From: Natribaculum luteum
Lineage (GTDB): Archaea; Halobacteriota; Halobacteria; Halobacteriales; Natrialbaceae
DNA length: 64,000 nucleotides
Assembly (NCBI RefSeq): GCF_023008545.1
Contig: NZ_CP095398.1
Location: 62,001 to 126,000 of the forward strand
Reading direction: 5' to 3'
Below, piece by piece: positions 366 through 54,017 of the stretch. Position 1 is the stretch's first letter, and each line of letters opens with the position of its first letter. A program made the translations under genes and the position numbers. The notes beneath the pieces were generated by a model that searched no databases, had not been told where the DNA came from, and was given only the letters and a program-made list of their open reading frames with translations.

Positions 366-1637
366 TCAACTCAGCGGGTCGTCAGTGATGGGAACTTGAC
401 CTTGACCACCGTGTTCGTCGAGGGCGTCCGGGCTGACGTCGAACTCGAAGACCGCTTTCGGAAGGGCGAGCGTCGAACACGCGTTCGGGATGTCGACGAT
501 GCCGCTCTGTCTTCCTTCGATGGGGACTGTCCCGAGGATCATGTACGCCTGCTCGCGCGTGTACCCGAACTTCGTCAGGTAGTCGATCGCGTCGAGTGCC
601 GCCCGACGGTACGCCACGTGCGGGTCCATGTAGTGTTGTTCGCCGTCCTCGGTGACGGAGTAGCCCTCGAAGACGACGTAATCCGAGAAGTTTGGACCGC
701 GGTGGCCGGGTTCGAAGATGGGGTGGTCGACGCCGAACTTGTTCATTCCGCCTTCGACGAGTTCGAACTTCACGTCGACGTAGCCGGCCATCTCGATGGC
801 CCCACAGAAGGTGATCTCGCCGTCGCCCTGGGAGGCGTGCAGGTCGCCGATACCGAACTTCGCCCCCTCGACGAAGACGGGGAAGTAGATCTTCGACCCG
901 AGCGAGAGGTCCTTGATGTCACAGTTGCCGCCGTGTTCCCGCGGTGGAACGGTCCTGGCTCCCTCCGTCGCGATCCGGTCGGCGCTGTCGCCTGTCGCTT
1001 CGCCAGGTAGCGCGCCGTCTTCCGTCGGCGGTGACGCGACCGGCGGTTCCGACTCACCTGTCGGATGGTTGTGAATCGACTCCGGATCCTCCTCGTGTTT
1101 GTCGATCAGTTCCTGTTCCCGTTCGTTCCACTCCTCGAGCAGTTCCTGGGACGGTGCCGTCCCGATCAATCCCGGATGGATCTTCCCCTCGTAGTACACG
1201 TCGGGAATGTGTCTCGAAGAGACGTACGTGCCGTCGAGATCCCAGATCGCTTTCGCCGCGTCGGGGAAGTGATCGGTCAGGAACCCGCCGCCGTTTTGCT
1301 GTGAGAAGATTCCCGTGAATCCGTACTCCCAGCGGTCGTTCAGCGGCCCGATGTCGAGCAGCGTTACTTTCAGCAGGTCGCCCGGCTGTGCGCCTTCGAC
1401 TTCGACCGGTCCGCTCAGGTAGTGGACCTGGTTGAGATCCACGTCGCGAACCTCGTTTGCGTCGTCGTTGTCCCGTATCTGACCGCCCGTCCAGTCGAGA
1501 CACTCGAGGCGCGCCGTCTCGCCAGGTTCGACGCTTATCACCGGCTCGATCTCCGGATGCCACCGATTGAACGGATTGTCACCCGGCTGGTCGTCGGGTG
1601 GACGTTCCACGTCCACCTCGAAATGAACTTCCGGCAT
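366..1637 (-). CDS. formamidase/acetamidase family amidohydrolase
   Basis: The protein is 423 residues and belongs to the FmdA/AmdA family, which hydrolyses formamide or short-chain amides to ammonia and the acid in the cytoplasm. Visible family features are the N-terminal segment rich in PGETARLECLDWTGGQI, the GDLLKVTLLDI strand, and the Gly/His-rich middle section (HGGNCDIKDL, where Cys and Asp are typically conserved). Near the C-terminus comes a motif ending in IPNACSTLALP. The length matches the family. I chose the ATG at 1637 because a GGAG purine stretch sits about 8 nt upstream; an in-frame GTG at 1676 would add 13 unconserved residues. The substrate is not resolvable from sequence. 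No transporter or regulator is adjacent, so it appears to be a single-gene unit. Confidence 0.88.
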   Translation of the reverse strand: MPEVHFEVDVERPPDDQPGDNPFNRWHPEIEPVISVEPGETARLECLDWTGGQIRDNDDANEVRDVDLNQVHYLSGPVEVEGAQPGDLLKVTLLDIGPLNDRWEYGFTGIFSQQNGGGFLTDHFPDAAKAIWDLDGTYVSSRHIPDVYYEGKIHPGLIGTAPSQELLEEWNEREQELIDKHEEDPESIHNHPTGESEPPVASPPTEDGALPGEATGDSADRIATEGARTVPPREHGGNCDIKDLSLGSKIYFPVFVEGAKFGIGDLHASQGDGEITFCGAIEMAGYVDVKFELVEGGMNKFGVDHPIFEPGHRGPNFSDYVVFEGYSVTEDGEQHYMDPHVAYRRAALDAIDYLTKFGYTREQAYMILGTVPIEGRQSGIVDIPNACSTLALPKAVFEFDVSPDALDEHGGQGQVPITDDPLS

Positions 1638-1684
1638 TGGTATCTCCGGGCCAGCAGGCCCGGGGTGAGAGTCCACAGATACAC

Positions 1685-1693
1685 TATTAAAAA
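1685..1693 (-). promoter_or_regulatory. TATA-like box for the formamidase gene
   Basis: An A/T-only octamer-like element (TTTTTAATA on the minus strand) lies about 50 nt ahead of the chosen ATG in an otherwise GC-rich region. It would give a short leader with the GGAG motif. Assigned by composition and spacing only. Confidence 0.4.
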
Positions 1694-2107
1694 TTACATA
1701 TGTTAATCTCTATAGAAGAGTAAAGTATTGTGAACGACGGGTCAAAATCGTCTCCGTAATCGAAGAACACTTTCACGCATCTCTCACGATAGAAATTGTG
1801 TCAGTACGACCGATACCGGTGCTGACTTGGCGTCGTTCACAGGCGGTGCGAGGCGGATGCTTCGGGGCTCGACCCCAAGCAGTTGACGACCGTAGCAGTG
1901 GTCTACGGTGGTTCCGAACCTCAGACGACCCCTGCGATTGCGATTATGATGTGGTTACGTTTTCGTGTACCTCCGCAAAAATTCGTTACTGCAGGACCAG
2001 AGATTACAAAAGTACTCCTGTAAAGCGGGCTGCACGGTCGCGGTAGCCCGCGGTACTCGGTACTTGACACTCGGTACCAGTATCTTACCGCGGCGGACGA
2101 CTCCCCA
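1694..2107. other. intergenic region without a supported gene
   Basis: About 410 bp between the formamidase promoter and the zinc-ribbon gene. The only structure I can support is the solo hairpin repeat at 1836-1887. Short frames here have no family resemblance. Confidence 0.5.
1836..1887 (+). repeat. solo structured repeat, copy A (IS200/IS605-type end or omega-RNA-like)
   Basis: The segment runs from TTCACAGGCGGT to AGTTGAC and contains GGATGC followed by a hairpin GGGG-CTCGA-CCCC. Two further copies flank the origin at 4701 and 5275 with the same order of blocks. This block order resembles the structured right ends of haloarchaeal IS200/IS605 (TnpB) elements; no transposase is attached here. 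Confidence 0.5.
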
Positions 2108-2311
2108 TCAGCCCTCCGCGTAAAACAGGGTTCGGTGACAGTCGGGACAGACGTACGGAACCGGCGTCAGTATCTCGTCTGCACGGATACTACTGAGAAA
2201 CCCCTCTTTCGGCCCCTCCGAGACGATGCTAATATTTCCGAAGTCTGTTCCCTGGAGTTTCATCCGCTCCATTGCGACGTCACAGTCGGGACACGTTTTA
2301 TCCGGGGACAT
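2108..2311 (-). CDS. small zinc-ribbon protein
   Basis: This 67-residue protein has two CPDC knuckles, CPDCDVAMERM near the N-terminus and CPDCHRTLFY near the C-terminus. They are separated by about 45 residues, as in haloarchaeal zinc-ribbon proteins of unknown role. The Met directly before SPDKTCPDC (position 2311) is the natural start; an upstream in-frame start at 2380 would add 23 residues with no conservation. Function unknown; such domains usually bind nucleic acid or a protein partner. It lies between a solo repeat and the origin region. Confidence 0.75.
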   Translation of the reverse strand: MSPDKTCPDCDVAMERMKLQGTDFGNISIVSEGPKEGFLSSIRADEILTPVPYVCPDCHRTLFYAEG

Positions 2312-2550
2312 ACGAGATGACCCGTAGTCGACGGCAATAATTCTGTTGACTCGACCGTTCTCGAGCGGCCGGGAGTGCAAACGACGTCGCTGACGTCGTA
2401 CCCATCGATTCGGGTCCGCTGACGACCGTCGTTCCGATCAGATTCTGATGGACACTGCACGATCTGATCCCGATTGACACCGCATTTCCGATGAACCAGT
2501 GTCCATCTCTCATACCGAATGAGGAAACCGATCGCTGTCACGCTCTATTT

Positions 2551-2566
2551 CACCGGAAACCCGGTG
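2551..2566 (+). repeat. origin recognition box (ORB 1)
   Basis: The core CACCGGAAACCCGGTG is preceded by TTT and followed by TGT. It has perfect 6-bp arms (CACCGG/CCGGTG) around AAAC. Lies downstream of the orc gene. A degenerate copy is visible around 2477-2495. Confidence 0.8.
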
Positions 2567-2597
2567 TGTTACAAATGGTGGTATTCGCCTCGAGAGA

Positions 2598-2613
2598 CAC
2601 CGCGTTTCCGGTG
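2598..2613 (-). repeat. origin recognition box (ORB 2)
   Basis: The core CACCGCGTTTCCGGTG is the inverted-orientation form of the box, facing ORB 1 at about 30 bp spacing. Confidence 0.75.
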
Positions 2614-2622
2614 AATTCACTC

Positions 2623-2754
2623 GAGGATTCTGGAAATCTCACCCGTCAACCCCGCAAATCAAACTCGACGACTCCGGAGATCTCACCAGACGACTCCGGA
2701 GATCTCACCAGACGACTCCGAAGAGCTCACCCGACGGCTCCATTGATCTCACTC
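2623..2754. repeat. six imperfect 22-bp tandem repeats at the 3' end of orc
   Basis: Units start at 2623, 2645, 2667, 2689, 2711 and 2733, exactly 22 bp apart. Units 3 and 4 are identical and the outer units decay progressively. Each carries a block like GACTCC-GGAGATCTCACC. The last unit overlaps the orc stop codon. They look like iterons beside the ORB pair, although their role is not shown. Confidence 0.8.
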
Positions 2755-3957
2755 GAGCGTCTCCACGAGCACGTTCTTGACGACCGATGGGTCCTCGAGG
2801 AGCGTGTGTTCGGTGTAGCTCCCTTCGGCGCTGCCGCCGCTGTGGCGGGACTGTTCGATCACGTCGAGAAACGCGTGTTCTTTCAGGAGGTCACGAACGC
2901 GACGGAGCGAGAGCGTATCCATCCCCTCCTGGCGGCAAATCTGTTCGTACACGTCGTAGATCCGGGTCGTCCGGAATCCCTCCTCGGGGGTGGCCGACTC
3001 GCCAGCGCCGTGCTCGAGAGAGAGAACGGTAAGCGCCTGCAAGACGTACCGGGAGTGAGGCGTCGACCCGCGGATGAGTTCCCGAAAGCGGTCGACTTCC
3101 GCTCGCTCTCTGGCCTGGACGACGAACTCCTCGCGAACCGTGTCGGCGTCCGTCGACTGCGCGATTTCGCCCGCGTACCGCAGAATGTCGATGGCCTTCC
3201 GCGCGTCGCCGTGTTCGCGAGCCGCGAGTGCTGCTGCGCGTGGGATGACCGCTTCCTCGAGGACGCCCTCGCGGAACGCGTCGCTGCGCGCCTCCATGAT
3301 GCTGTTGAGCTGGCTCGCGTTGTACGGCGGGAAGACGAACTCGCGTTCGCAGAGACTCGACTTGACCCGTTCGTCCATCCGATCTTTGTACTTGATCTTG
3401 TTGCTGATCCCGATGACGCCGATCTTGCAGTTGGTGAGCTTCCCAGCCTCCCCGGCACGAGAGAGTTGCATGAGGATCGCGTCGTCCTCGAGTTTGTCGA
3501 TCTCGTCGAGGATAATCAGGACGACGTCGTACGTCCGATCGAGGACGCGCCAGAGTCGTTTGTAGTAGGTGGCCGTGCTGATCCCTTTGTCGGGGATGTA
3601 CACGTCGCTTTCCTCGGTGTTGACCGTACTGGCGATCGTCTGCACTGCCTGCGTTTCGGTGGTGTCCTGGGCGCAGTCGACGTAGACGTACGCCGCCGTG
3701 ATTCCTTCCTCGTCGGCGGTATCGACGAGCCGACTCGAGACGTACTTCGCACAAAGCGACTTTCCAGTGCCGGTTTTCCCGTAGATCAAGACGTTGCTCG
3801 GACTCTGACCGAAGATAGCGGGGTTGACCGCGTTGGCGAGCTGGCCGATCTCCTCGTCGCGACCGACGATTCGTCCCTCGTCCGGCACGTGACTGATCTC
3901 GAGAAGTTCTTTGTTGACGAAAATTGGATCCTCCCGAATGAACAAATCGTCGGACAT
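2749..3957 (-). CDS. Orc1/Cdc6 family replication initiator
   Basis: This 402-residue initiator ATPase binds ORB elements and recruits MCM helicase at the origin. It has a Walker A motif GKTGTGKS near residue 65, a Walker B motif VLIILDEIDK near residue 160, and a sensor-type stretch GVIGISNKI. A C-terminal winged-helix region ends in a Leu/Arg-rich segment for DNA contact. The start chosen is the Met of MSDDLFIRED at 3957. In-frame codons upstream run through two ORB elements and translate them as HRK/GNT-like peptides, so they are not part of the protein. ORB boxes lie on both sides of the gene, and the promoter region contains ORBs 3 and 4, which suggests autoregulation by its own product. 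Confidence 0.95.
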   Translation of the reverse strand: MSDDLFIREDPIFVNKELLEISHVPDEGRIVGRDEEIGQLANAVNPAIFGQSPSNVLIYGKTGTGKSLCAKYVSSRLVDTADEEGITAAYVYVDCAQDTTETQAVQTIASTVNTEESDVYIPDKGISTATYYKRLWRVLDRTYDVVLIILDEIDKLEDDAILMQLSRAGEAGKLTNCKIGVIGISNKIKYKDRMDERVKSSLCEREFVFPPYNASQLNSIMEARSDAFREGVLEEAVIPRAAALAAREHGDARKAIDILRYAGEIAQSTDADTVREEFVVQARERAEVDRFRELIRGSTPHSRYVLQALTVLSLEHGAGESATPEEGFRTTRIYDVYEQICRQEGMDTLSLRRVRDLLKEHAFLDVIEQSRHSGGSAEGSYTEHTLLEDPSVVKNVLVETLE

Positions 3958-20374: not shown

Positions 20375-21226
20375 AACGGATCTGAAACATTACACCCATA
20401 TGTTCGTAAGGCCAGCGAGCGGTAAACGATAACACTCCTATGGCTGTCAGGGATAGGAGGTCGGTACGCTCGATCGACAATTCATAACGATTGCTGTGAC
20501 TGGTTGCCGACGCAACCGCAAGCCGGGTCGCGGTTGCGCCGGGACAGACTCACAGCGATCGGTATCAGGCCTCGCCGGCACCGTTCACCGAGAAGAAACG
20601 GAAGCGACGGGTCCGACCAGGCGAAAGCCCGTCGATAGAACGGCAACGACGTCTATTCGGCACCATGCTGGCGAAATCGCTCGAGGTCGGTCTTCTCAAC
20701 TGTTTCTGTTCCCGAAACCCTCGTATCTGTGATAGGATCGGGAAAAACGGCCTCAGAAGAGCGTTGCCGCGCAAATTTTCCCGTTTTCAATATTCGCCGG
20801 ATTTCCTCGCGGAGAAACGCGTTTGTCGACACGAAACGGGTCACACGAGTCTCTCGGAAAGCGGGGTCGTCGGCCCGAGAGTGGATTCGTTCGCGCGATA
20901 GCCAACGCAGTAGACGGGAGGTGGATTTCGCTCAGCACCGACGCTGGCAGTGGTGGGGCAGACGACTCTCGATCGCTTCATCGAGAGAGACCTGCTCGAG
21001 ACGGAGTGTCTCGCTCGTCTCGAGTGCGGAGGACCGTGCAATCCGTCGATTTTCGCCGATCGTGATCCGTCCGCCGACGAGGAGACGATGCGTTTCGCGT
21101 AAAGAAACGACACGGCGTTTCGCATCCATCGGCAGTCTGCGAACGATTCCCTCTCGGAAGTCGATGCTCGATCGAACAGCCGCTCGCGGCATCTGCATTC
21201 CAAGAATCGCGGCTACGGGATGCTCG
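20375..21226. other. gene-poor stretch with an 80-bp palindromic element
   Basis: No supported protein gene. Contains the palindromic element at 20485-20564. Frames such as 20653-20844 and 20932-21198 (minus) have no recognisable family and mixed codon quality, and may be remnants of decayed genes. Confidence 0.45.
20485..20564 (+). mobile_element. 80-bp palindromic MITE-like element, copy 1
   Basis: Starts TAACGATTGCTGTGACTGG and ends with the near-complement of that sequence (CACAGCGATCGGTA). The two arms pair over about 37 positions. It is bounded by a 3-bp direct repeat TCA (20482-20484 and 20565-20567). Two further 80-bp copies are at 32905 and 49303. No coding capacity. Confidence 0.85.
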
Positions 21227-32904: not shown

Positions 32905-32984
32905 TCACGATAGCTGTGAGTCGTTACCGCCGCAACCGCGAACCGTCTTGCTGTTGCGTCGGTGCCCAGTCACAGCCATCATTA
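32905..32984 (-). mobile_element. 80-bp palindromic MITE-like element, copy 2
   Basis: Exactly 80 bp, bounded by TCA at 32902-32904 and 32985-32987. In reverse orientation it begins TAATGATGGCTGTGACTGGG and is nearly identical to copy 3. The right-hand TCA is also the mutase stop codon (TGA on the minus strand). Confidence 0.85.
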
Positions 32985-43902: not shown

Positions 43903-44098
43903 TGGTATGGGGTAGTATCGTGTTTCTCGTCGCACTCGTCTCGGTTGACTCGTGCTCGGTTCGCGGTTTCCACCGAAACCTTTCTGATTGTTCCTGTTAA
44001 ATCTCTCGATCGGATCCCACGTTAGTTTTTCGGAACGCGCAACGCTGGCGACCGAAAGGGAGACCGTCCACACCCCCGACCGAAACGACGACAGATGA

Positions 44099-44278
44099 TC
44101 AAGCGAATTCGGCGAGCTGCACCGACTGTGTCGTTTCGATCCACGCGAGCGGATTTTCCGAGTCGTAGATCACGACACGTTTGTCCGTCGTGTACGACTC
44201 GACCGTCCCGTCCGTTCTTGAGGTATCGTGCTCACTTTTGTCGCCAGATTGATCACTACCGTCACCGGAGTCGGACAT
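44099..44278 (-). CDS. short haloarchaeal protein of unknown function (59 residues)
   Basis: The N-terminal half is a Ser/Asp/Gly-rich disordered stretch. The conserved part is [27 protein letters not shown], a pattern I recall from a family of short uncharacterised haloarchaeal proteins. It is divergent from the enoyl-CoA hydratase gene. No role can be assigned. Confidence 0.65.
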
Positions 44279-44405
44279 CTCATTCACCACGGAATACGAT
44301 ATGGGCCGCCACGTTATAATTCTGCCGCGGCCGATGTATCGACGGCGACGGCAGTCAAACTGACGGGGGGGTTTATACTGACAGACGTCCGACTCTTACC
44401 CGCTC

Positions 44406-45176
44406 ATGACGGAGCACGTCATCTACGAACAGGAGGGCGATGTGAGTACCGTTCAACTGAACCGACCCGACAAACTGAATTCACTCTCACTCGAGATGTG
44501 GGACGCGATTCCCGCGTACATTCGGCGGGCGCGCCGAGACGGTGCACGTGCGGTCGTCCTCACCGGAACGGGACGAGCCTTCTGTGCTGGCGACGACATC
44601 GGTACGCTCGACGAGATCGAATCCGAGTGGGACGTCCGCGAGTTGACCGAGACGGCCTTCGAATGCTTCCGAACGATCGAACGGGCACCGATCCCGGTGA
44701 TCGGCATGGCGAACGGATCGGCGTACGGTGGCGGATTCGAGCTCCTGCTCTCCTGTGACATGACGGTCGTTCCGGAGGACGCTACGTTCGCGCTCCCGGA
44801 GGTGCAGATCGGTGCGTATCCGTTCTACGCGACCAAGCGTCTCGCACGTCTCATCGGAAAGCAACGCGCGATGGAGCTGTCTATCGCCGGCCGGGAGATC
44901 TCCGGAACGATGGCCGCCGACTGGGGAGTGTTCGCCCGTGCGGTTCCCGAAGACGAGGTGAGCGACACGGTCGACGAGTTGCTCGACGGCGTCCACGACG
45001 GATCTCCCGGCGCGATCGACGTCACGAAATCGTGGCTGAACGCGAGTCTGCGGTTCCCCGGTGAAGACGACGCCATGCGAAGCGGGTTCGGCTACCTCTA
45101 TGCGGGTCCGGACGCACACGAAGGCGCATCTGCGTTCGTCGAGAACCGAGACCCGGAGTACACCGGAGCGGAATGA
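44406..45176 (+). CDS. enoyl-CoA hydratase/isomerase family protein
   Basis: This 256-residue crotonase-fold enzyme has the oxyanion-hole motifs GRAFCAGDDIG (residues about 57-67) and NGSAYGGGFELLLSCD. The catalytic-type Glu is visible in GGGFELL and another in ALPEVQIGAYPFYA. It hydrates or isomerises enoyl-CoA substrates. Its stop codon overlaps the ATG of the downstream broken gene (ATGA), so they formed an operon. A beta-oxidation or 3-hydroxyacyl-CoA role is likely; substrate unknown. Confidence 0.9.
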   Translation: MTEHVIYEQEGDVSTVQLNRPDKLNSLSLEMWDAIPAYIRRARRDGARAVVLTGTGRAFCAGDDIGTLDEIESEWDVRELTETAFECFRTIERAPIPVIGMANGSAYGGGFELLLSCDMTVVPEDATFALPEVQIGAYPFYATKRLARLIGKQRAMELSIAGREISGTMAADWGVFARAVPEDEVSDTVDELLDGVHDGSPGAIDVTKSWLNASLRFPGEDDAMRSGFGYLYAGPDAHEGASAFVENRDPEYTGAE

Positions 45177-45600
45177 CGTCCTCGCCCGCCATCGTCGACC
45201 CTTCGAATCGTTACCAGGGGGTCGTCGAGTCACCAGGTCGACGGCGGGCGCACACACGATCCTCTCCGACGACGAGGAGATCCGTGTCACCGGTGCGGAC
45301 CAGCCCGCCCCCGTCGTGCGCACGAGCTACGACGACGAGTACTTCCCTGCGATTGCCGACAAGCTCGGCTGGGGAATCCGCGACGCCGACGGTGGTCCGG
45401 CCAACCTGTGCTTGTCCCACACTGTGGCGGGCAAACACGGTGACCTCCACGACCGAGCCCTCAAAGTTGCAAACGAAGCCGCCAGAAACGCCGGCGAACC
45501 GTTGCGGGAGCTTCACGGAGCGGTCGAATCGATCACGCACGAGAGCGACAAATCCGACGTCGATTTGTACGTCGCGATCCGACGGAACCGTCCACGGCCG
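45173..45600 (+). pseudogene. frameshifted and 3'-truncated gene of unknown family
   Basis: From the ATG overlapping the enoyl-CoA hydratase stop, the first 20 codons read SPAIVDPSNRYQGVVE. The good coding signal then moves to another frame (AHTILSDDEEIRVTGADQPA, YFPAIADKLGWGIRDADGG, LKVANEAARNAGEPLRELHG). That second part has G/C-rich third codon positions and haloarchaeal composition, but no usable start of its own. It ends where the convergent acetyltransferase gene begins. I do not recognise the family. Confidence 0.55.
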
Positions 45601-46326
45601 TCAAAGCTCGTATGCCATCATCACCTCGTCGAGGTACTCGTCGGCCAGTTTGTAGTGATCTTCGCGGACGGCTTCGACTCTCCAGCCGCGCTGTTCGAGG
45701 AACGATCTCGCGTCCTCGTTGCTCGATGGAACGCTGCTGTAGACTTTCTCGTAGCCGTTGTCGGCTGCCCACTCGAGGCTACACGAGAGAAGCCGCGAGC
45801 CGATTCCGTGGTCGCGATACTCCTCGAGGACGCCGACGGTGAGTTCGGCGACGTGATCCCGTTTGTCCACGTTGGATGCGTCGATGTGGGCCCAACCCAC
45901 CACCTCGCCCTGAACCGTCGCGACGAAGAACACTCGCAACTCGAGTTCGTTGGTCCAGAGCAAGGCGTCGCGAAAGACAATCTCGGCTGTGACGCTCTCC
46001 GCAACGACGCAATCGGCCTCATCGGTCACGCGCCGAATCGCACCGAGGATACCGGACCGGTCTTCTCGTCCGGCCAGTCGGATGTCGAACTCGAGCCGAT
46101 CGCTGCCAAACTCATCTCGGACGCCGTCGTCGATCGACACGCGTAACTTCTCGCCGTCGGTTTCGATGTGGCCATCGCCTCGAAGGATCGCGACGTGGTG
46201 GCGAAATCCGCGCGGATCGATCCCCAGTTGCGTTCGGACCTCTTCTCTGTTCGTCTCTCCCCGCCGTTTGACACAGTCGTAGATTCGTCTTCGATCGTCG
46301 TGGGTAAACTCGAGGCGTCCTTTCAT
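45601..46326 (-). CDS. winged-helix/GNAT acetyltransferase fusion
   Basis: The protein is 241 residues. Residues about 5-70 form a winged helix-turn-helix (FTHDDRRRIYDCVKRRGETNREEVRTQL, then GFRHHVAILRGDGHIETDGEKL). Residues about 90-240 form a GNAT domain with VAELTVGVLEEYRDHGIGSRLL as the acetyl-CoA loop and SSNEDARSFLEQRGWRVEAV near the end. This suggests a regulator that acetylates or senses acetyl-CoA. The ATG at 46326 is preferred; the first five residues of a longer version are not conserved. It faces the broken gene and lies upstream of the IS66 element. Confidence 0.82.
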   Translation of the reverse strand: MKGRLEFTHDDRRRIYDCVKRRGETNREEVRTQLGIDPRGFRHHVAILRGDGHIETDGEKLRVSIDDGVRDEFGSDRLEFDIRLAGREDRSGILGAIRRVTDEADCVVAESVTAEIVFRDALLWTNELELRVFFVATVQGEVVGWAHIDASNVDKRDHVAELTVGVLEEYRDHGIGSRLLSCSLEWAADNGYEKVYSSVPSSNEDARSFLEQRGWRVEAVREDHYKLADEYLDEVMMAYEL

Positions 46327-46448
46327 GTCATATGGTACCATACCCGTCGTTGAACTATTAAATACTTGTGTTCAGCATTTCGCGTCGATGGAGTCCGCTC
46401 GAGAACTCGTTTGGCAAACGCCGCCCCCGTTTCCGTACTGTCCCCTAC

Positions 46449-48024
46449 GTAGTTGGATAGCGATTTGCCGTCAGACCGATTTCGTAGCAGTCTCATGAAT
46501 GGTCTCTCAATGGTGAATCAAGTGTGTCGCTGGGGGTTAGCGGATCGCTGGAATCGATAGATTCCACGATCCGCACCGAGAACAGTACGCATCTCCGCCA
46601 GCAACTCGTCGTCAAAGAGCTTGAGAACCGACTTCTTCGTCGTCAGATCACTGCAAAACAACAGCAGATCGAACAACTTGAGGCTCGCCTCAAGCGGTAC
46701 GAAAACCCAAACACACCTCCCAGTAAGCAGGGTGGCGTGGCTGGATCACCTGGCAACGATGACAGCGACGAGGAAGAGAACGAAGACCAAGGGGACGACG
46801 CTGGCGGCGACGCTGACGCCGCCAGCGGCTCCTCTCCAGGACGTGACGAAGGTCACGAAGGAACAACTCGACCGCCTCCGGAACCAGAGGAGACTATTCG
46901 AGTCGATCAGGGATATTGCCCAGACTGTGAGCAAATCCTCTCTAACCCGGACAGCTACATCTCACGGACGATTATCGACATACCTCTCCCTATTCCAACC
47001 ACTGTCGTCGAGTACGAACTCGGCAAACACCGCTGTTCCTGTGGAAACGAAGTCGTTGCTGAACATCCAGACTGCCCGGAAACCGGGCGGTTTGGGCCAA
47101 ATATCATGGCCCAAACCGCCCTCGGTAGGTTCCATCAGCGACTTCCAAACCGTAAACAGGCGGAGCTGTTTGACTGGGAACTCGATACACCCATCTCTCA
47201 TCGGACGATCTACAACCTGACCAAGCGGGTCGCAGACCGGCTGCGACCCGCGTATGACGATGTCAAAGCCCGTATTCAGGAAAGTGACGTCGTCTACTGC
47301 GATGAAACGGGATTTCCTGTTGACGGAGAGCAACACTGGGCGTGGACGTTCGTTACTGACGAAGAAGTGCTGTTCTGGGTTGATGAGAGTCGTGGAAGTC
47401 AGGTGTTAGAGGACGTCCTCGGCGAGGACTTCGCCGAGGACTCAACGCTCAGCTGTGACGGTTGGTCAGCGTATCCGAGCTATCACACGAAGCTCCAGCG
47501 GTGCTGGGCACATCTGTTGCGGGAGGCGGAGTACGTTGCTGAACGGTACGAGGAAGCAGAGAGGTTGTCTGAGGAGTTACACGCTCTCCATGACGATTTA
47601 ACGGCGTTCGACGAGGAGGATCCGTCCGCCTCCGCCCGCGAGCAAAAGCGGGCGGAGGCGTCGTTACATCTGGAAGGCCTGATCAGGGAAGACTACGAGG
47701 CACAGGAGGTCAAGAAGCTGATCGAGAAGATCAGGAACGGGTTAGGGCACTGGCTGACGTTCGTTACAGAGCCAGACGTCGATTCGACGAATAATCGCGC
47801 AGAGCGCGCTCTGCGCGAGCAAGTTGTGCTGCGGAAGATGTTCCGGACCCTCCGCTCAGCCGAAGGGGTCCAGATTCACGAGACGATTACGACCATGTTA
47901 GCCACGTGGAAACGACGAGGACTTGATCCGCCTGAACAGCTCCAGTCCATCCTCGGTGGGCAAGAACTCAGATTAGGATGAGAGGCATCACTGGCCGGTG
48001 AATCCTGGTCACGCTATCCAACTA
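46449..48024 (+). mobile_element. IS66 family insertion sequence, complete
   Basis: This 1576-bp element is bounded by the inverted repeat GTAGTTGGATAGCG (46449-46462) and CGCTATCCAACTAC (48011-48024). A perfect 8-bp target duplication TCCCCTAC lies at 46441-46448 and 48025-48032. Eight-base duplications are typical for IS66. The single gene is a transposase. It has inserted about 50 bp upstream of the universal stress protein gene, probably within its promoter region. Confidence 0.95.
46524..47981 (+). CDS. IS66 family transposase
   Basis: The protein is 485 residues. An N-terminal leucine-zipper-like coiled coil (residues about 20-60, RQQLVVKELENRLLRRQITAKQQQ) is followed by an acidic low-complexity linker and a zinc-binding segment (CPDC, CSCGNE). 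A DDE-type catalytic domain follows, with VVYCDETGFPVDGEQ, LSCDGWSAYPSYH and a final acidic motif TNNRAERALREQVVLRK. The initiation codon is GTG at 46524 in the best frame. The usual accessory IS66 genes (tnpB/tnpC small proteins) are absent, as in single-gene IS66 elements of haloarchaea. Confidence 0.93.
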   Translation: MSLGVSGSLESIDSTIRTENSTHLRQQLVVKELENRLLRRQITAKQQQIEQLEARLKRYENPNTPPSKQGGVAGSPGNDDSDEEENEDQGDDAGGDADAASGSSPGRDEGHEGTTRPPPEPEETIRVDQGYCPDCEQILSNPDSYISRTIIDIPLPIPTTVVEYELGKHRCSCGNEVVAEHPDCPETGRFGPNIMAQTALGRFHQRLPNRKQAELFDWELDTPISHRTIYNLTKRVADRLRPAYDDVKARIQESDVVYCDETGFPVDGEQHWAWTFVTDEEVLFWVDESRGSQVLEDVLGEDFAEDSTLSCDGWSAYPSYHTKLQRCWAHLLREAEYVAERYEEAERLSEELHALHDDLTAFDEEDPSASAREQKRAEASLHLEGLIREDYEAQEVKKLIEKIRNGLGHWLTFVTEPDVDSTNNRAERALREQVVLRKMFRTLRSAEGVQIHETITTMLATWKRRGLDPPEQLQSILGGQELRLG

Positions 48025-48073
48025 CTCCCCTACCGGCCGAAAACTGATATACCGTCGTTTCGTTTGTTTCGGT

Positions 48074-48511
48074 ATGCCGTTACTGGTACCATTCGATGGA
48101 TCGACGCTATCGCAAGCGGCACTCGAGCGTGCAGTCGAGTTCGGCGAGTGTCTCGATCGGAACGTCGTCGTCCTGGCGGTCGTTCCAGAAGACGAACGAT
48201 ATCTCGAAGATCGGTGGGGTGAAACCGATCCGGAGCTAGTCGTCGAGCGACTTCGAAGTCGTGCCCACGAACTCGTTCCAGAGGCGACCTTTCGGGTAGA
48301 ACGGCCGACCGATCCCGAAGACGAGCCCTACGCCGACGCGACGATAAACGTCGTACGTGCGATCCGTGAAGTCGCTGGCGACATCGATGCCGACGTCGTG
48401 TTCGTCGGAAGCGAGAACGCCGGCCGCGTCTCGACGCCGGTCACGAGCGTCGGCGCGCCGGTGTCGGAAGATCCTCGATACGACGTTCACATCGTCCGCC
48501 ACGCGGATTGA
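48074..48511 (+). CDS. universal stress protein family (UspA-like)
   Basis: This 145-residue protein begins MPLLVPFDGSTLSQAALERAVEFG, the standard Usp opening. The C-terminal part has DVVFVGSENAGRVSTPVTSV, where the family's nucleotide-binding G-rich loop lies but with fewer glycines than ATP-binding members. Usp proteins respond to stress and starvation; the partner is unknown. Its TGA stop lies inside a solo IS200/IS605-type hairpin repeat, and an IS66 element sits just upstream. Confidence 0.88.
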   Translation: MPLLVPFDGSTLSQAALERAVEFGECLDRNVVVLAVVPEDERYLEDRWGETDPELVVERLRSRAHELVPEATFRVERPTDPEDEPYADATINVVRAIREVAGDIDADVVFVGSENAGRVSTPVTSVGAPVSEDPRYDVHIVRHAD

Positions 48512-48546
48512 CATCCACTCACGACTGAAGTCGTGGGCGTTCTCCT
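48508..48546 (-). repeat. solo IS200/IS605-type right-end hairpin, copy 1
   Basis: On the minus strand it reads GGAGAACGCCCACGACTTCA, then GTCGTGAGTGGATGTCAA. The stem ACGACTT-CA-GTCGT and the terminal GGATGTCAA are the known pattern of TnpB-element right ends. No tnpB is attached. The usp stop codon lies within it. Confidence 0.65.
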
Positions 48547-48558
48547 TGACCCCGTGTA

Positions 48559-48670
48559 ATACTACTGGACAACAGTCAGTGAATACTCGATCGCGTCTCG
48601 ACGGCTGTCGTCGCTGACGACAGCGTCTCGAGTGCGATCGATGGCTGAACCGTTTTGTCCAGCAGTATAC
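48559..48670. mobile_element. 112-bp palindromic MITE-like element
   Basis: Ends are AATACTACTGGACAA (48559-48573) and TTGTCCAGCAGTATA (48655-48669). Between them two arms pair around GACGGCTGTCGTC-GCTGACGACAGCG. The terminal repeats resemble those of small nonautonomous haloarchaeal IS derivatives. Confidence 0.65.
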
Positions 48671-48898
48671 GTTCTCCATCGTGAAAATATAATAACCATC
48701 TGTGAGTTTATTATCTCTGTATCCGATTCAACTCCCAATATCTATCTCTTTTAGACACTACTAAATTTACTGAGTGTTATAGCAACCACTGAACGTCATT
48801 GTACACTTCCTCGCGATACAGCGGCCGCGATCGGCGATACATCGTCGATTCTGATCACTTCGATGTGAGGTGTGTGTGTGAATCGGTTGACTGGAGGC

Positions 48899-48937
48899 TT
48901 GACATCCTCCACACGACTGAAGCCGTGGGCGTTCTCC
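48899..48937 (-). repeat. solo IS200/IS605-type right-end hairpin, copy 2
   Basis: On the plus strand it reads TTGACATCCTCCACACGACT, then GAAGCCGTGGGCGTTCTCC. Same motif as copy 1 with changes in both stem arms. No transposase attached. Confidence 0.65.
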
Positions 48938-49282
48938 TGTAGTTCGTGTAAGCCGCTATCGATTGCGACTGGACGATTTGCGTCATACGAACCCGCTAGA
49001 GACGAGCTAGCTCAGGATGCTCCACTCGGATTGATACGGAACGACGCTGCCCGAACGACACGTAGCTCTCGGAGATCGTTCATATCTTGCGAACGCGTAT
49101 TGCTCGTCGACGAGTCGCCGAACGACGCTCGTCAACGGCAGCAATTCCAACCTATTATAAATATATTCGAACTGGATTGTTAGACGATTTCTCAACAAGC
49201 AAAGTTATTCACTATCCTAACTAGAAAACTAATTACTAGTTTAACAGTGTCGAGTAGAGTTCCACGGATCACCCGACCTGTG

Positions 49283-49396
49283 TTGACATCCATCCAGACT
49301 GATAATGATGGCTGTGACTGGGTACCGACGCAACCGCACGACGGTTCGCGGTTGCGGCGGTACAGACTCACAGCTATCGTTATGAAGTCGTGGGAG
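49283..49396 (-). repeat. solo IS200/IS605-type right-end hairpin, copy 3, split by the 80-bp element
   Basis: TTGACATCCATCCAGACTGA (49283-49302) and GAAGTCGTGGGAGT (49384-49397) are the two halves of the same motif. The 80-bp palindromic element lies exactly between them with TGA duplicated. Confidence 0.7.
49303..49382 (+). mobile_element. 80-bp palindromic MITE-like element, copy 3
   Basis: Starts TAATGATGGCTGTGACTGGG and ends CTCACAGCTATCGTTA. Bounded by TGA at 49300-49302 and 49383-49385. The insertion site can be reconstructed because removing the element plus one TGA restores an intact IS200/IS605-type hairpin. Confidence 0.88.
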
Positions 49397-50407
49397 TAGT
49401 CACTCGAGCACGGTGGTCGCGACTCGTCACGTACCGCGTGTCTGGCGTAGCACGTGTGACTGCGGTCACAGTCACAGTACTCGAGGACGTGTCAGGTCGT
49501 GACCTCGTATCCTGCGTCCTGGACGGTACTGACGAGAGAACTCGCTCTATCGAGCTACGTTCTCCCGAGGCGGTTCACTTCAGACACCTGCTCGGAGTCC
49601 GAGACCAATCCTCGACTCAGCGTCACAGTCCCTGCCATCAGGGCAAGTCAACTGCCCCGCGCACGGTGGCGCGGGGCTTGTCAGTGACCTTCGCAACGTA
49701 GTTTGCAAAACGTTCGTGTGTCCGTCATGCACGACCTCAATTCAGTTATAGGGAAACAGGGTCATATATCACGTATGCATGGGGGGATAGGGGCGAGCAG
49801 ATCCAGACGCGTTTCCACTCGAGCGCGAGCACAGTTTCGACGTGATTCGCCTGTAGTGGCGCGGAAATCGACGAATGCGCACTGACAGTCGATTCAGTCC
49901 ACAACGGCAGTTCGACGAGGTCGTAGCGGCGATGCTAGTCGTCGGCAAGGTGATCACCCGACCGTTCGTTCGAACTGTCCTCACGTCGTTCGAAGCCGTT
50001 GCACTCCTCGATACCGACGTCGGTCGACACCTAGCGTCGTCCATCGATGCCCTCCACGGCTCTCGCCAGCAGCGCGAGCAGGACGTGACCAGAGTTGTTC
50101 CGTCCGGTGGCTCCCTCCAAAACGCGCTTGGGCGTCGGTTGGTTCCTGACGACCGTTATCGACCGAATGGAATACGACGTGTCCTGACTGATAATCACGT
50201 CTTTCGTCGAGTGCACTTCCACGTCTGGGCCACAGAGACCGCCGTCAAAATCATGTTGATATCGACGTTTCGTACTCGTATCCTCTGAGAACCTGCAATT
50301 TACTTCTAATATAATTTATACTATTGATATTAATACACGTAACAATATATCCCTTTTACGGATGACACACTCGAGGGACTAGCCGTCCCCAGGGGGACTG
50401 AGAGACG

Positions 50408-50839
50408 ATGAGAAAATACGACGATAGCAACTCACGCCGCGAATTCATACAGAAAGGGGGCCTCACAGCGAGTGCACTCGCACTCGGGGTCACGGCCACA
50501 GGTACCGCGACTGCACAGCAAAACGAGCGTGCGCTGGTATTCTCGTACAACTACCTTCCAGAAGCGGACTTTACCGTCGTCGGTCGGCTCAGGAAGAGTC
50601 TCACTGTCGACTTGCTCGAGGTCGACGGAGAAATGGTCGACGAAATCTCCCAGCCCGACGAGTGGAACGGTCACGTCATCCGATACGACGTGGATGGCGG
50701 ATCGGATGCAGCGGGCATCACTACCTTCCTATTCTTGCAGAATCAGACCTTAGACAGCGGTGATACTGCATCGACTTCCGCCGATGCATCGATGTTCAGT
50801 TCGGAGCTGAATCTTCTCAATACGTCGATCGACGAGTGA
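50408..50839 (+). CDS. small Tat-exported protein of unknown function
   Basis: The protein is 143 residues. The N-terminus NSRREFIQKGGLTASALALGVTATG is a twin-arginine signal peptide. After cleavage at about TATAQQ, the mature part is a short acidic beta-rich protein (ADFTVVGRLRKSLTVDLLE, WNGHVIRYDVDGG, GITTFLFLQN). No Cys, no lipobox. It is probably a soluble secreted protein. It is convergent with the next gene, with only 10 bp between stop codons. Confidence 0.75.
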   Translation: MRKYDDSNSRREFIQKGGLTASALALGVTATGTATAQQNERALVFSYNYLPEADFTVVGRLRKSLTVDLLEVDGEMVDEISQPDEWNGHVIRYDVDGGSDAAGITTFLFLQNQTLDSGDTASTSADASMFSSELNLLNTSIDE

Positions 50840-50849
50840 ACTACACTAC

Positions 50850-51335
50850 CTACAGGAGATTGAGCGGGTTCAGCATGTCGACGAACTCGAGGACGCTATC
50901 TTGCGTGTACTTGATGACGTCGACGATGAGGTACTCGGTCTCGACGATGAGTTCCTCGGTATAGAGGATCCGGTCAGCCATCTCGCCGATGCGATCTGCC
51001 ATCTCGCCGATCTGGTCTTCGGTGTAGAGAACACCGTCGAGGCTTTCGAGGTACAGCACTTCGCCGGTCTCGGCGAGCACCATGACGACCTCGTCGATCT
51101 GACAGCAGCCGTTCGGCTCCTGGAACAGGTAGAAGGTACTCCCGTCCGGGAGCGGTGCGTAGATGAACGATTCGCCCAAGTACGTCTCGGCGTACGAGAA
51201 CGTCGTTCCCGGTTCGAGTTCGAGTTCGTAGGAGTCGTCCGTGGTCTCGGCGCTGGCGGTGTTCGTGGCGGCGACGGCGGCTCCACCAGCGACGGCGGCG
51301 GTACCGAGTTTCGAGAGCAGCGTTCTGCGATTCAT
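50850..51335 (-). CDS. small secreted protein with a heptad duplication
   Basis: This 161-residue protein has a signal peptide (NRRTLLSKLGTAAVAGGAAVAATNTASA; RR-type). The mature domain begins with YELELEPGTTFSYAE and contains a Cys pair (NGCCQID). Its C-terminal third is amphipathic and carries a tandem copy of IGEMADR encoded by a 21-bp duplication, followed by ILYTEELIVETEYLIVD. Function unknown; a helical membrane- or partner-binding tail is possible. It is convergent with the other secreted-protein gene. Confidence 0.72.
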   Translation of the reverse strand: MNRRTLLSKLGTAAVAGGAAVAATNTASAETTDDSYELELEPGTTFSYAETYLGESFIYAPLPDGSTFYLFQEPNGCCQIDEVVMVLAETGEVLYLESLDGVLYTEDQIGEMADRIGEMADRILYTEELIVETEYLIVDVIKYTQDSVLEFVDMLNPLNLL

Positions 51336-51811
51336 AGTGAGTTATCCTGCCCAAGTGACTGCCATAGTATTGGGCTGTATTGTAGTAAATGCGCAATATG
51401 TGTTTAAGACTGTCGATTCACCGTTTCGAGGCCAGTTGTGTACATTATCGCCGGTATTCCAGTGGCCCGATTCTTTTGAATCGCATCCTGATCGCTGTAT
51501 GGCCGATAATTTCGCGTGTGTGAGACGTGCGTTCGTCGTCTCTACTCGCCATTCGTCCCAATCTAAAACCACACGTCTCGGGGCCACAATCAGTTTCACC
51601 GACCTATTGTTTTGTGAAGTATTTACAATATTGTACGTCTCGAGGATTCGTGATGGCCGATGACCCGCACAGTTTTCCACTCGAGTATTCTCGTCCGCCC
51701 TGCATCTTGGCCTGGTTCACGGCGAACTACAGCGAGACACGGAAACGCTCGTTGCGCTTTTTATGATCACCAGTCAAACTCCGTAGCCGATACTGGAGCG
51801 TATCGTCTGTA
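51336..51811. other. intergenic region without a supported gene
   Basis: About 475 bp between the secreted-protein start and the aldo/keto reductase stop. Lower GC in 51360-51420 and 51595-51650 suggests promoter or decayed sequence. Nothing else is seen. Confidence 0.45.
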
Positions 51812-52822
51812 TCAGTCCTTCCTCGGGGCGGGCCACCGAGGGTCGATCGGGTCCTCGATACGCTCGAGTTCGTCAACAGAGAGTTCGACGCCGATCGCAG
51901 CCACGTTCTCTTCCAGGTGCTCGATCGACCGCGGGCCGATGATCGGGGCGTCGACGACGTCCTTCTGGAGGAGCCAGGCGAGCGATACCTGCGCTGGCGA
52001 TGCGTCCTTCGCTTCGGCAAGCTCCTCGATGACGTCCAGGACGGCCCAGTTCTCGTCGGTGAATCGCTGTTTCGTGTACTCGTCTGCGGCTGCGCGGAGG
52101 TCCCCCTCAGGGTCGGCGTCCCTGTCGTACTTTCCGGTTAGGAAGCCGCCGGCAAGCGGTGACCACGGAATGACGCCGATTCCCTCTTCGGTACAGACTG
52201 GGAGAATATTCGCCTCCTCGTGACGATCAACAGCGTTGTACTCCGGTTGCATACAGACGAACCGCTCGACGTTTTCGACGTCGGCTGTGTACAGCCCCTT
52301 GGTAAACTGATAGGCCGACATCGTACTGGCGCCGACGTACCGGATTTTCCCTTCTTCGATCAGGTCGTCGAGGGCGTGCAATGTCTCCTCGATCGGCGTC
52401 GACTCGTCCCAGCGATGGATCTGGTAGAGGTCGATGTAGTCTGTTCTCAGCCGATCGAGGCTCGCCTGGCACTGATCGAAGACGTGTTTCCTGGAGAGGC
52501 CCTGCTTGTTCGGTCCGTCGCCCATGCGACCGAACACCTTCGTCGCGATCACGAGGTTGTCGCGATCGTACGGTTCGAGTGCCTGACCGACGATCTCCTC
52601 GCTCTCGCCGTGCGAGTAGACGTTGGCGGTATCGAAGAAGTTGATCCCCATCTCCAGCGCGCGGGCGATGATCTCGTGGGACTGCGTCTCGTCGCCGATC
52701 ATCCAGGGTTCGCTGTTCCCGAAGTTCATACATCCAAGGCAGAAACGGGACACCTCGAGTCCTGTCTCTCCTAGGGTCGTATACGCCATGTCGTCTGCAT
52801 ACTCGACCGTCTGATCTGCCAT
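51812..52822 (-). CDS. aldo/keto reductase
   Basis: This 336-residue TIM-barrel oxidoreductase uses NADPH. The catalytic tetrad is visible: Asp in FFDTANVYSHG, Tyr in the same stretch, Lys in LVIATK and His in LYQIHRWD. The cofactor-binding C-terminus ends IIGPRSIEHLEENV. A start 33 bases later (MAYTTLGETGLEVS, 52789) is also plausible and closer to the usual family N-terminus. It reduces an aldehyde or ketone, or a sugar; the substrate is unknown. Confidence 0.92.
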   Translation of the reverse strand: MADQTVEYADDMAYTTLGETGLEVSRFCLGCMNFGNSEPWMIGDETQSHEIIARALEMGINFFDTANVYSHGESEEIVGQALEPYDRDNLVIATKVFGRMGDGPNKQGLSRKHVFDQCQASLDRLRTDYIDLYQIHRWDESTPIEETLHALDDLIEEGKIRYVGASTMSAYQFTKGLYTADVENVERFVCMQPEYNAVDRHEEANILPVCTEEGIGVIPWSPLAGGFLTGKYDRDADPEGDLRAAADEYTKQRFTDENWAVLDVIEELAEAKDASPAQVSLAWLLQKDVVDAPIIGPRSIEHLEENVAAIGVELSVDELERIEDPIDPRWPAPRKD

Positions 52823-52976
52823 ACCCTGACCAGTCCTGTGATCCCGAAAAGCATTGGGGTGGCAGAGAATCGTCTCGCCTATCCATCTTTCGTCCGCAGA
52901 GTGTGTTCGGCAAGAGTGGCGCTCTCGACCAGACGACCTCGAGTTCTCACGTCGGTGATACTCGGTCTTCGACCGA

Positions 52977-53702
52977 CTACTCGTCGTCTCCGTCCCCGTC
53001 TGAAACTGCGTCGTTCTCCCAGCCTTCGCTGTGGATCCGTTCCTCTGGCGTGCCGAGGTCGCGAAGCCGCTCGGTCGTCTCGACGACCATCTCCGGGACG
53101 CCGCAGACGTAGAAGTCCCGCGTTTCGAACTCGTCGAAAAGCTCGTCGAGGTGCTCCTGGACGTACCCGATCCGGCCGAGCCAGTCCCAGTCGGGATCCG
53201 ACAGGGTGTAGGTCACCTCGCAGTTCGCGTGCATCACCGCCAACTCGTCGAGCGTGCTCCGATGGGTGATCGACTCTGCGGTCTGCTCGCCGAACACGAG
53301 GTGTGCGTCGCCGTCTCCGACTCGAAGGTAGTGTCTCAGGATCGCGAGTAGCGGCGTGAGGCCAGTGCCACTCGCGAGCAAGGCAACGTCGCGGTCCGGA
53401 TCTGCGAGGGTGAGATTTCCCTCGAACTCTCCGATGGTGAGCTCGTCGCCCGGCAAACGGGTGTGCATGTACGACGAGGCGAGTCCGTCGTCGTACCGTT
53501 TGATCGCGAGCGCGAACTCGTCGGTGTCAGGGAGAGTCGTCGGCGTGTAGGGGCGAACGACCTCCTTTCCGTCAGTCTCGAACTGGACGGTCGTGTGCTG
53601 GCCGGGGTCGTAGTCGAGGTCGTGGTCGGGAACGCGAATCCGGAATCCCCTGACTCGTGGCGTGAGTCGGTACGTGTCGACGAGCGTTGCGGTGTACGTC
53701 AT
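52977..53702 (-). CDS. FAD/NAD(P)-binding oxidoreductase (ferredoxin-NADP reductase type)
   Basis: This 241-residue flavoprotein has an N-terminal beta-barrel with the FAD-binding motif VRPYTPTTLP and the isoalloxazine-facing GLASSYMHTRLPGDEL. The NAD(P) domain carries ASGTGLTPLLAILRHY and FYVCGVPEMV. It has no iron-sulfur domain, so it works with a separate electron acceptor or donor. The ATG at 53702 starts the conserved barrel (MTYTATLVDTYRLTPRVRGF); a longer frame upstream has no family features. Confidence 0.88.
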   Translation of the reverse strand: MTYTATLVDTYRLTPRVRGFRIRVPDHDLDYDPGQHTTVQFETDGKEVVRPYTPTTLPDTDEFALAIKRYDDGLASSYMHTRLPGDELTIGEFEGNLTLADPDRDVALLASGTGLTPLLAILRHYLRVGDGDAHLVFGEQTAESITHRSTLDELAVMHANCEVTYTLSDPDWDWLGRIGYVQEHLDELFDEFETRDFYVCGVPEMVVETTERLRDLGTPEERIHSEGWENDAVSDGDGDDE

Positions 53703-53986
53703 CGGGTCACCCCGAAGCGAAAACGAGCGATCATCGTTCGCTCGAACGTACACGAGCCAGCCGCAAAAACGGCCAATACGAAAGTGGACGACAGTCACCA
53801 TCGGGAGAACGTATGCGAGCGTCTCGAGGAATCGACGAAACCGTGATCCGGATCGGAGTCCGAGACGATACCGAGGCCCACTACCGTTCGCCGTGACCGG
53901 CCGAGATGTAGACCATTGCCGTCGGAACTGCCCGACGATAAGCGGGCACCTCGAGCGCGTCACCTCGTTGGGACGGCGGGATGCAC

Positions 53987-53994
53987 AATTTATG
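53987..53994 (+). promoter_or_regulatory. TATA box for the aldo/keto reductase gene at 54018
   Basis: AATTTATG lies about 25-30 nt before the ATG, spacing typical of a leaderless haloarchaeal promoter. Confidence 0.5.
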
Positions 53995-54017
53995 TATGTC
54001 GACGCTGACGGCCGCAT

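Follow-up and report, generated by a model that had tools for sequence, protein, structure and literature searches.

The window analyzed here, a 64,000-nucleotide stretch of a Natribaculum luteum contig (NZ_CP095398.1), contains three copies of an 80-bp hairpin element, in line with the initial annotation, which had counted the last of them as "copy 3"; we refer to this element as family A. This last copy lies between two TGA trinucleotides and splits an IS200/IS605-type end hairpin, an arrangement that was described beforehand and that we found to be exact to the base. Two unsplit end hairpins and one copy of a second hairpin family, family C, lie just ahead of it. The features are as follows.

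20485-20564, plus strand: family A copy flanked by TCA/TCA; a minus-strand frame is open for 73 codons ahead of the TGA, where no gene is called
32905-32984, minus strand: family A copy flanked by TGA/TGA, immediately following the stop of a called gene (567 aa)
48508-48537, plus strand: unsplit solo IS200/IS605-type end hairpin, from the sequence and a motif search
48560-48667, minus strand: family C copy of 108 bp, TACTGCTGGACA...AGTA, with flanks GTA/TTA, an imperfect duplication
48899-48929, plus strand: second unsplit solo IS200/IS605-type end hairpin, from the sequence and a motif search
49283-49302, plus strand: IS200/IS605-type end hairpin interrupted by the element, left half: TTGACATCC...GACTGA, laid out as at 48508 and 48899
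49300-49302, plus strand: left TGA, the target and first copy of the 3-bp duplication, from the sequence and the family flanks
49303-49382, plus strand: family A 80-bp hairpin element between the TGA copies, with boundaries as in other family copies
49383-49385, plus strand: right TGA, the second copy of the 3-bp duplication, from the sequence and the family flanks
49386-49394, plus strand: IS200/IS605-type end hairpin interrupted by the element, right half: AGTCGTGGG, from the sequence

When the 80-bp element and one of the two TGA copies were removed, TTGACATCC...GACTGAAGTCGTGGG was restored, with TTGACATCC at 49283-49291 and the same layout as the solo hairpins at 48508 and 48899, just as the initial annotation had proposed. 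Since the left stem of the rebuilt motif deviates by two bases from a match to its partner (CCAGACT is present where CCACGACT was expected), the motif is equal in layout but not identical. The outer motif is more than a chance occurrence; allowing at most one mismatch, GACTGAAGTCGTGGG was found at 13 places in the genome versus 0 for the reversed control. Its proposed class also held up. In locus L329 an ORF with a Y1_Tnp domain (PF01797, E 4.9e-39) follows this GACTTCAGTC hairpin at a distance of ∼100 bp, and the designation as an IS200/IS605-type end is therefore correct. Beside the three motifs of the window itself, where ORFs were scanned in part, neither a Y1 tnpA nor a tnpB was identified.

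Other insertions into such hairpins were also observed. The L329 end hairpin itself contains, at 1522-3215, an IS that has an ORF of 475 aa and a duplication of GACTTCAGTC, and a different IS occupies a similar end hairpin at L326 ∼1689-3077 with TTCA on both sides. IS200/IS605-type end hairpins are a target for several kinds of element, as is likewise described for Haloquadratum in PMC3119063. The three cases (49283-49397, L329, and L326) resemble the insertion of IS elements into REP palindromes, as outlined in PMC1525189, in that one mobile element targets the hairpin of another, but there the inserted unit is a full IS, whereas the nested unit in our window is an 80-bp element.

The 80-bp hairpin has 36-nt arms that are 83% complementary and folds with −49.9 kcal/mol, compared to a mean of −23.8 for shuffled sequences (z −9.25). 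Its termini are 5′-TA...TA-3′ and it contains no transposase gene. In an Rfam search of positions 44000-54000, no family matched at the hairpin. To collect further copies, we searched the genome with a covariance model that covers the 80-bp unit without flanks and was built from an alignment of 42 copies, and obtained at least 150 scored rows on both strands. These correspond to at least 88 strand-collapsed places in the N. luteum genome, which were read with their flanks after the two weakest places were left out. The flanks of the 88 places were TGA/TGA in 33, TCA/TCA in 26, TGA/CGA in 8, TGA/TAA in 3, mixed TGA/TCA or TCA/TGA in 2, and other in 16; where a pair was imperfect, the changed copy was mostly the one behind a stop codon. 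Head-to-tail dimers of the element with 0 bases between the units were observed at L041 304-463 and at G001:C1:1005538-1005697, and a phage collection searched for the element gave no match.

The initial annotation had read the TGA on either side of the nested copy as a 3-bp target duplication. For this copy one might suspect instead that the two TGA trinucleotides repeat by coincidence, and such a view gains from the fact that no orthologous empty site turned up: the 415-bp right flank had 0 orthologues in 40 relatives, with short pieces alone matching. However, the boundaries of the nested copy match those of the other copies, and TGA or TCA flanks are equal in 59 of the 88 family members, which makes coincidence exceedingly improbable. 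The duplication is borne out family-wide by these equal flanks, by TAA/TAA pairs in another genus, and by one clean empty site, albeit at a different copy from the nested one. Equal flanks and the empty site refute chance as the origin of the flanks for the family.

The empty site came from a comparison of three 20-kb stretches with a sister species of the same genus (G001; 93-97% identical in the compared stretches). Of 10 copies compared, 7 were common to both species, 1 had a clean empty site, and 2 were absent along with neighboring sequence. At the clean site, C1:2067211, the N. luteum element is enclosed by TCA...TCA, and G001 has a single TCA. The copies at 2075035 and 2368023 are those that are absent from G001 together with adjacent letters. 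Because the duplication is family-wide and a clean empty site exists, the order of events proposed initially also follows, with the IS end first and the palindromic hairpin element second. Copies common to both species had diverged more than the adjoining gene ends, and one had decayed mid-element. At 2361786 the two genomes carry different subfamilies in opposite orientation, and at 566985 (L119 18986-19065) the hairpin loop is inverted relative to G001 while the outer arms agree; sites are therefore re-used or converted. Apart from family A, we noted a 272-bp repeat at L121 8981-9252 with ∼25 to 30 copies in G001, chiefly on its second contig.

We also considered mobilization by a single-strand transposase. 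A Y1 (TnpA-REP-like) transposase is the presumed mover of bacterial REP sequences, and Y1 elements produce no target duplication. If an IS200/TnpA-REP-like enzyme moved family A, the TGA on either side would mark where the enzyme cuts and would not reflect a duplication. The element is palindromic, small, extragenic, and present in high copy, and the genome contains an IS200-type tnpA, all of which would suit such an enzyme. However, the two flanks co-vary (TGA, TCA, and in one genus TAA), which is expected of a copied target; both orientations are found after TGA; and a duplication is present where Y1 elements make none. The TAA/TAA pairs in particular show that the flanking bases are a copy of the target. 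On these grounds we rejected the Y1 mechanism, which we consider highly unlikely.

To locate family A relative to genes, we used a simple codon-usage gene caller; many copies were available with 300 bp of flank only. Among the 88 places, 52 coincided exactly with the stop codon of a called gene, 33 were intergenic, and 3 were "inside" genes. The expected share at stops is 13.5%, based on 21 tiles covering 464 kb, which hold 282 TGA stops and a further 1,807 TGA/TCA sites in noncoding sequence (p 2e-23); since the tiles were picked around copies, this background includes the stops of some copies themselves, and the resulting bias runs against the claimed excess. Within gene ends, 52 copies lay at the stop versus 15 at most 60 nt downstream, against a background of 282:366 (odds ratio 4.5, p ∼1e-8). 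We dropped a count of frames with 60 open codons as a stop measure, since 34% of background sites pass it. Because family A usually sits at stop codons, the nested copy is an exception for this high-copy family; its flank pair is the 1 in 88 (by eye) at an IS605-end hairpin, and the usual address is the stop codon of a gene. Among annotated plasmid copies, 5 of 10 directly adjoin the stop of a CDS in the deposited annotation (two in Halomontanus rarus and one each in Natrinema thermotolerans, Natrialba magadii, and Haloterrigena sp. KLK7) and 5 of 10 do not.

Individual stop codons illustrate the association. For instance, L024 and L043 each display a ladder in which the stop TGA is followed by a family A element, a TGA, an element of a second family, and a further TGA. 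At the uvrA stop, the element is present in N. luteum and G001, Natronococcus sp. A-GB1 retains 23 bp of one (TACGG...CCGTA), flanked by TGA and CGA, and the other six named relatives that were read have no element directly at the stop. Orientation is biased at called stops as well (40 vs 12, p 1.3e-4), while elsewhere 14 copies follow TGA and 20 TCA (Fisher p 0.0013). The bias persisted when only copies clear by 20 bits were counted (26 vs 9, p 0.006), and counts in two other genera were 9 vs 5 and 6 vs 3. The bias may point to a function within the transcript.

It is conceivable, then, that the hairpins work in RNA, where a 3′-UTR stem behind the stop would protect or end the transcript and selection, not target choice, would set the position. 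The strong hairpin, an orientation bias that is seen at stop codons and nowhere else, and the sharing of 7 of the 10 compared copies between two species are all consistent with such a function. Selection alone, though, leaves unexplained why the stop itself is occupied over the next TGA/TCA within 60 nt (the 52 vs 15 noted above), and the shared copies have diverged more than the gene ends beside them, with one decaying in the middle. We therefore regard RNA function as the determinant of position as possible but doubtful.

The family is also found beyond N. luteum. Matches to the family A model occurred in 26 of 61 genomes, that is, in 26 of 37 from the same taxonomic family and 0 of 24 from other taxonomic families. 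An initial set of 37 places from other genomes included 26 with equal TNA pairs and 17 at stops (three of these places overlap the two sets that follow). G015, from a second genus, has 29 copies with TGA/TGA at 13, TCA/TCA at 8, and TAA/TAA at 2, and 14 of the copies lie at stops; G029, from a third genus, has 20 copies with TCA/TCA at 8 and TGA/TGA at 7, and 9 lie at stops. One of the TAA pairs lies at the end of a 500-aa gene, whose stop codon is TAA.

Hairpins of other sequence share this architecture. Family C (TACTRCCGGACA...), which looks unrelated to family A, has TA...TA ends as in family A (window 48560-48667; L225-L228, L341-L356). In stretches of G001 and G000, its flanks were equal TNA at 17 of 28 places (TCA 8, TGA 5, TAA 2, TTA 2), and 12 of the 28 were at called stops, TAA stops among them. 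A third family of 78 bp (TACTATCGGACGTAACTG...) with TCA/TCA flanks was seen in two copies, at L132 2763-2840 and L138 4526-4603. We also scanned blindly for hairpins that have TA...TA ends and are flanked by equal TNA. In 30 loci from other haloarchaea this yielded 3, in two loci and all of 78 bp, versus 0 and 0 for the controls (other equal 3-mers and unequal TNA), whereas 43 bacterial loci yielded 1 versus 2 and 2. Hairpins of 78 bp with the same architecture are located at L156 6592-6669 and 13668-13745 and at L157 15855-15932, with duplications TGA, TCA, and TAA; the sources of these loci are an uncultured Halobacteriales archaeon and Halobellus salinus. A query taken from L156 gave no match when searched against plasmids.

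In our search for a mobilizing enzyme, DDE_Tnp_1 (PF01609) was the transposase family covered. We inspected the ends of 30 loci and 20 further stretches, and at 51 of the 61 DDE_Tnp_1 places in the N. luteum genome we found no TA-ended element with a TNA duplication; inspected places with clear ends had duplications of 4 to 10 bp. A paired-end scan over all loci returned no parent element either, as three apparent "pairs" merely join separate hairpin copies.

The 3-bp direct flanks, presence versus absence at one site (the single clean event in 10 compared copies), the stop-codon excess, and the ladders were demonstrated directly. We think it likely that these hairpins form a MITE-like, nonautonomous, TNA-duplicating class whose accumulation at gene ends reflects target preference, selection, and a local preference for stop codons. 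Such a class would span the ∼78 to 80-bp hairpins and the 108-bp family, with termini 5′-TA...TA-3′. A transposase acting in trans, presumably by DDE-type chemistry on the symmetrical ends, would insert the element at TNA, here mostly TGA or TCA, and duplicate the three bases. The stop codons TGA and TAA both fit TNA. Insertion at a stop codon would retain the stop and rebuild it on the far side, so that the gene would survive and the rebuilt TGA would be open to further insertion. The buildup at gene ends would arise from target choice together with loss of insertions in coding and upstream regions, where selection is the probable agent, and there may be an additional local preference for the stop codon itself. 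The nested copy would have used the TGA in the loop of the IS605 end hairpin. A bolder and only tentative proposal is a haloarchaeal transposition system that actively seeks stop codons, in which unrelated hairpin families with TA...TA ends and TNA duplications prefer the stop over neighboring TNA, rebuild it, and stack, with the result that they are tolerated by the host and may serve it as 3′-UTR modules.

Among published elements, the short mobile repeats (SMRs) of Haloquadratum come closest, but family A differs from them in duplication and target. As described in PMC3119063, SMRs are ∼110 bp (HqIRS41 is 80 bp), transposase-free, and present in up to 54 copies with prominent inverted terminal repeats, and their mobilization is termed enigmatic. 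Family A resembles them in size range, lack of a transposase, inverted terminal repeats, and high copy, but SMRs are described there without a target duplication, a difference of description that sets them apart from family A with its 3 bp. SMR-A inserts into the near-terminal palindromes of IS605-type elements and PATEs, for which it has a strong preference, in contrast to the 1 of 88 family A places at such a palindrome and the 52 of 88 at called stops. Family A bears the marks of a prokaryotic MITE except for a known parent: like the MITEs described for haloarchaea in that paper, it is a short inverted-repeat element without a transposase gene, in many copies and with a fixed 3-bp duplication, but it differs in its strong stop-codon association and in having no parent with matching ends among the DDE_Tnp_1 places inspected. 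With REP/REPIN sequences and TnpA-REP (PMC8266576, PMC3116915, and PMC3733652), it shares extragenic palindromes in many copies. Those sequences, however, have no target duplication and carry a tetranucleotide tag at one end (GTAG/CGTC in PMC3733652), whereas family A has a duplication and TA...TA ends that lack this tag. In a literature search that left most subscription papers outside its reach, we found no report of haloarchaeal elements at stop codons, and a word search of PMC3403918 gave no mention of palindrome, MITE, or stop codon.

For a mobile element in a gene-dense genome, duplicating the stop codon is a near-harmless address, and this would account for hairpins directly behind many haloarchaeal genes. 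It would also give mRNA 3′ ends that differ between sister species and can be compared. The question raised is whether an enzyme recognizes gene ends or selection spares only such copies, and the short mobile repeats of Haloquadratum can be looked at afresh. Lastly, the window holds another GC-rich hairpin at 49647-49711 that is perhaps an IS605-type end; Rfam gave a weak, sub-threshold sot2652 match (19.8 bits, gathering 61), and pieces of this hairpin recur across several haloarchaeal genomes.
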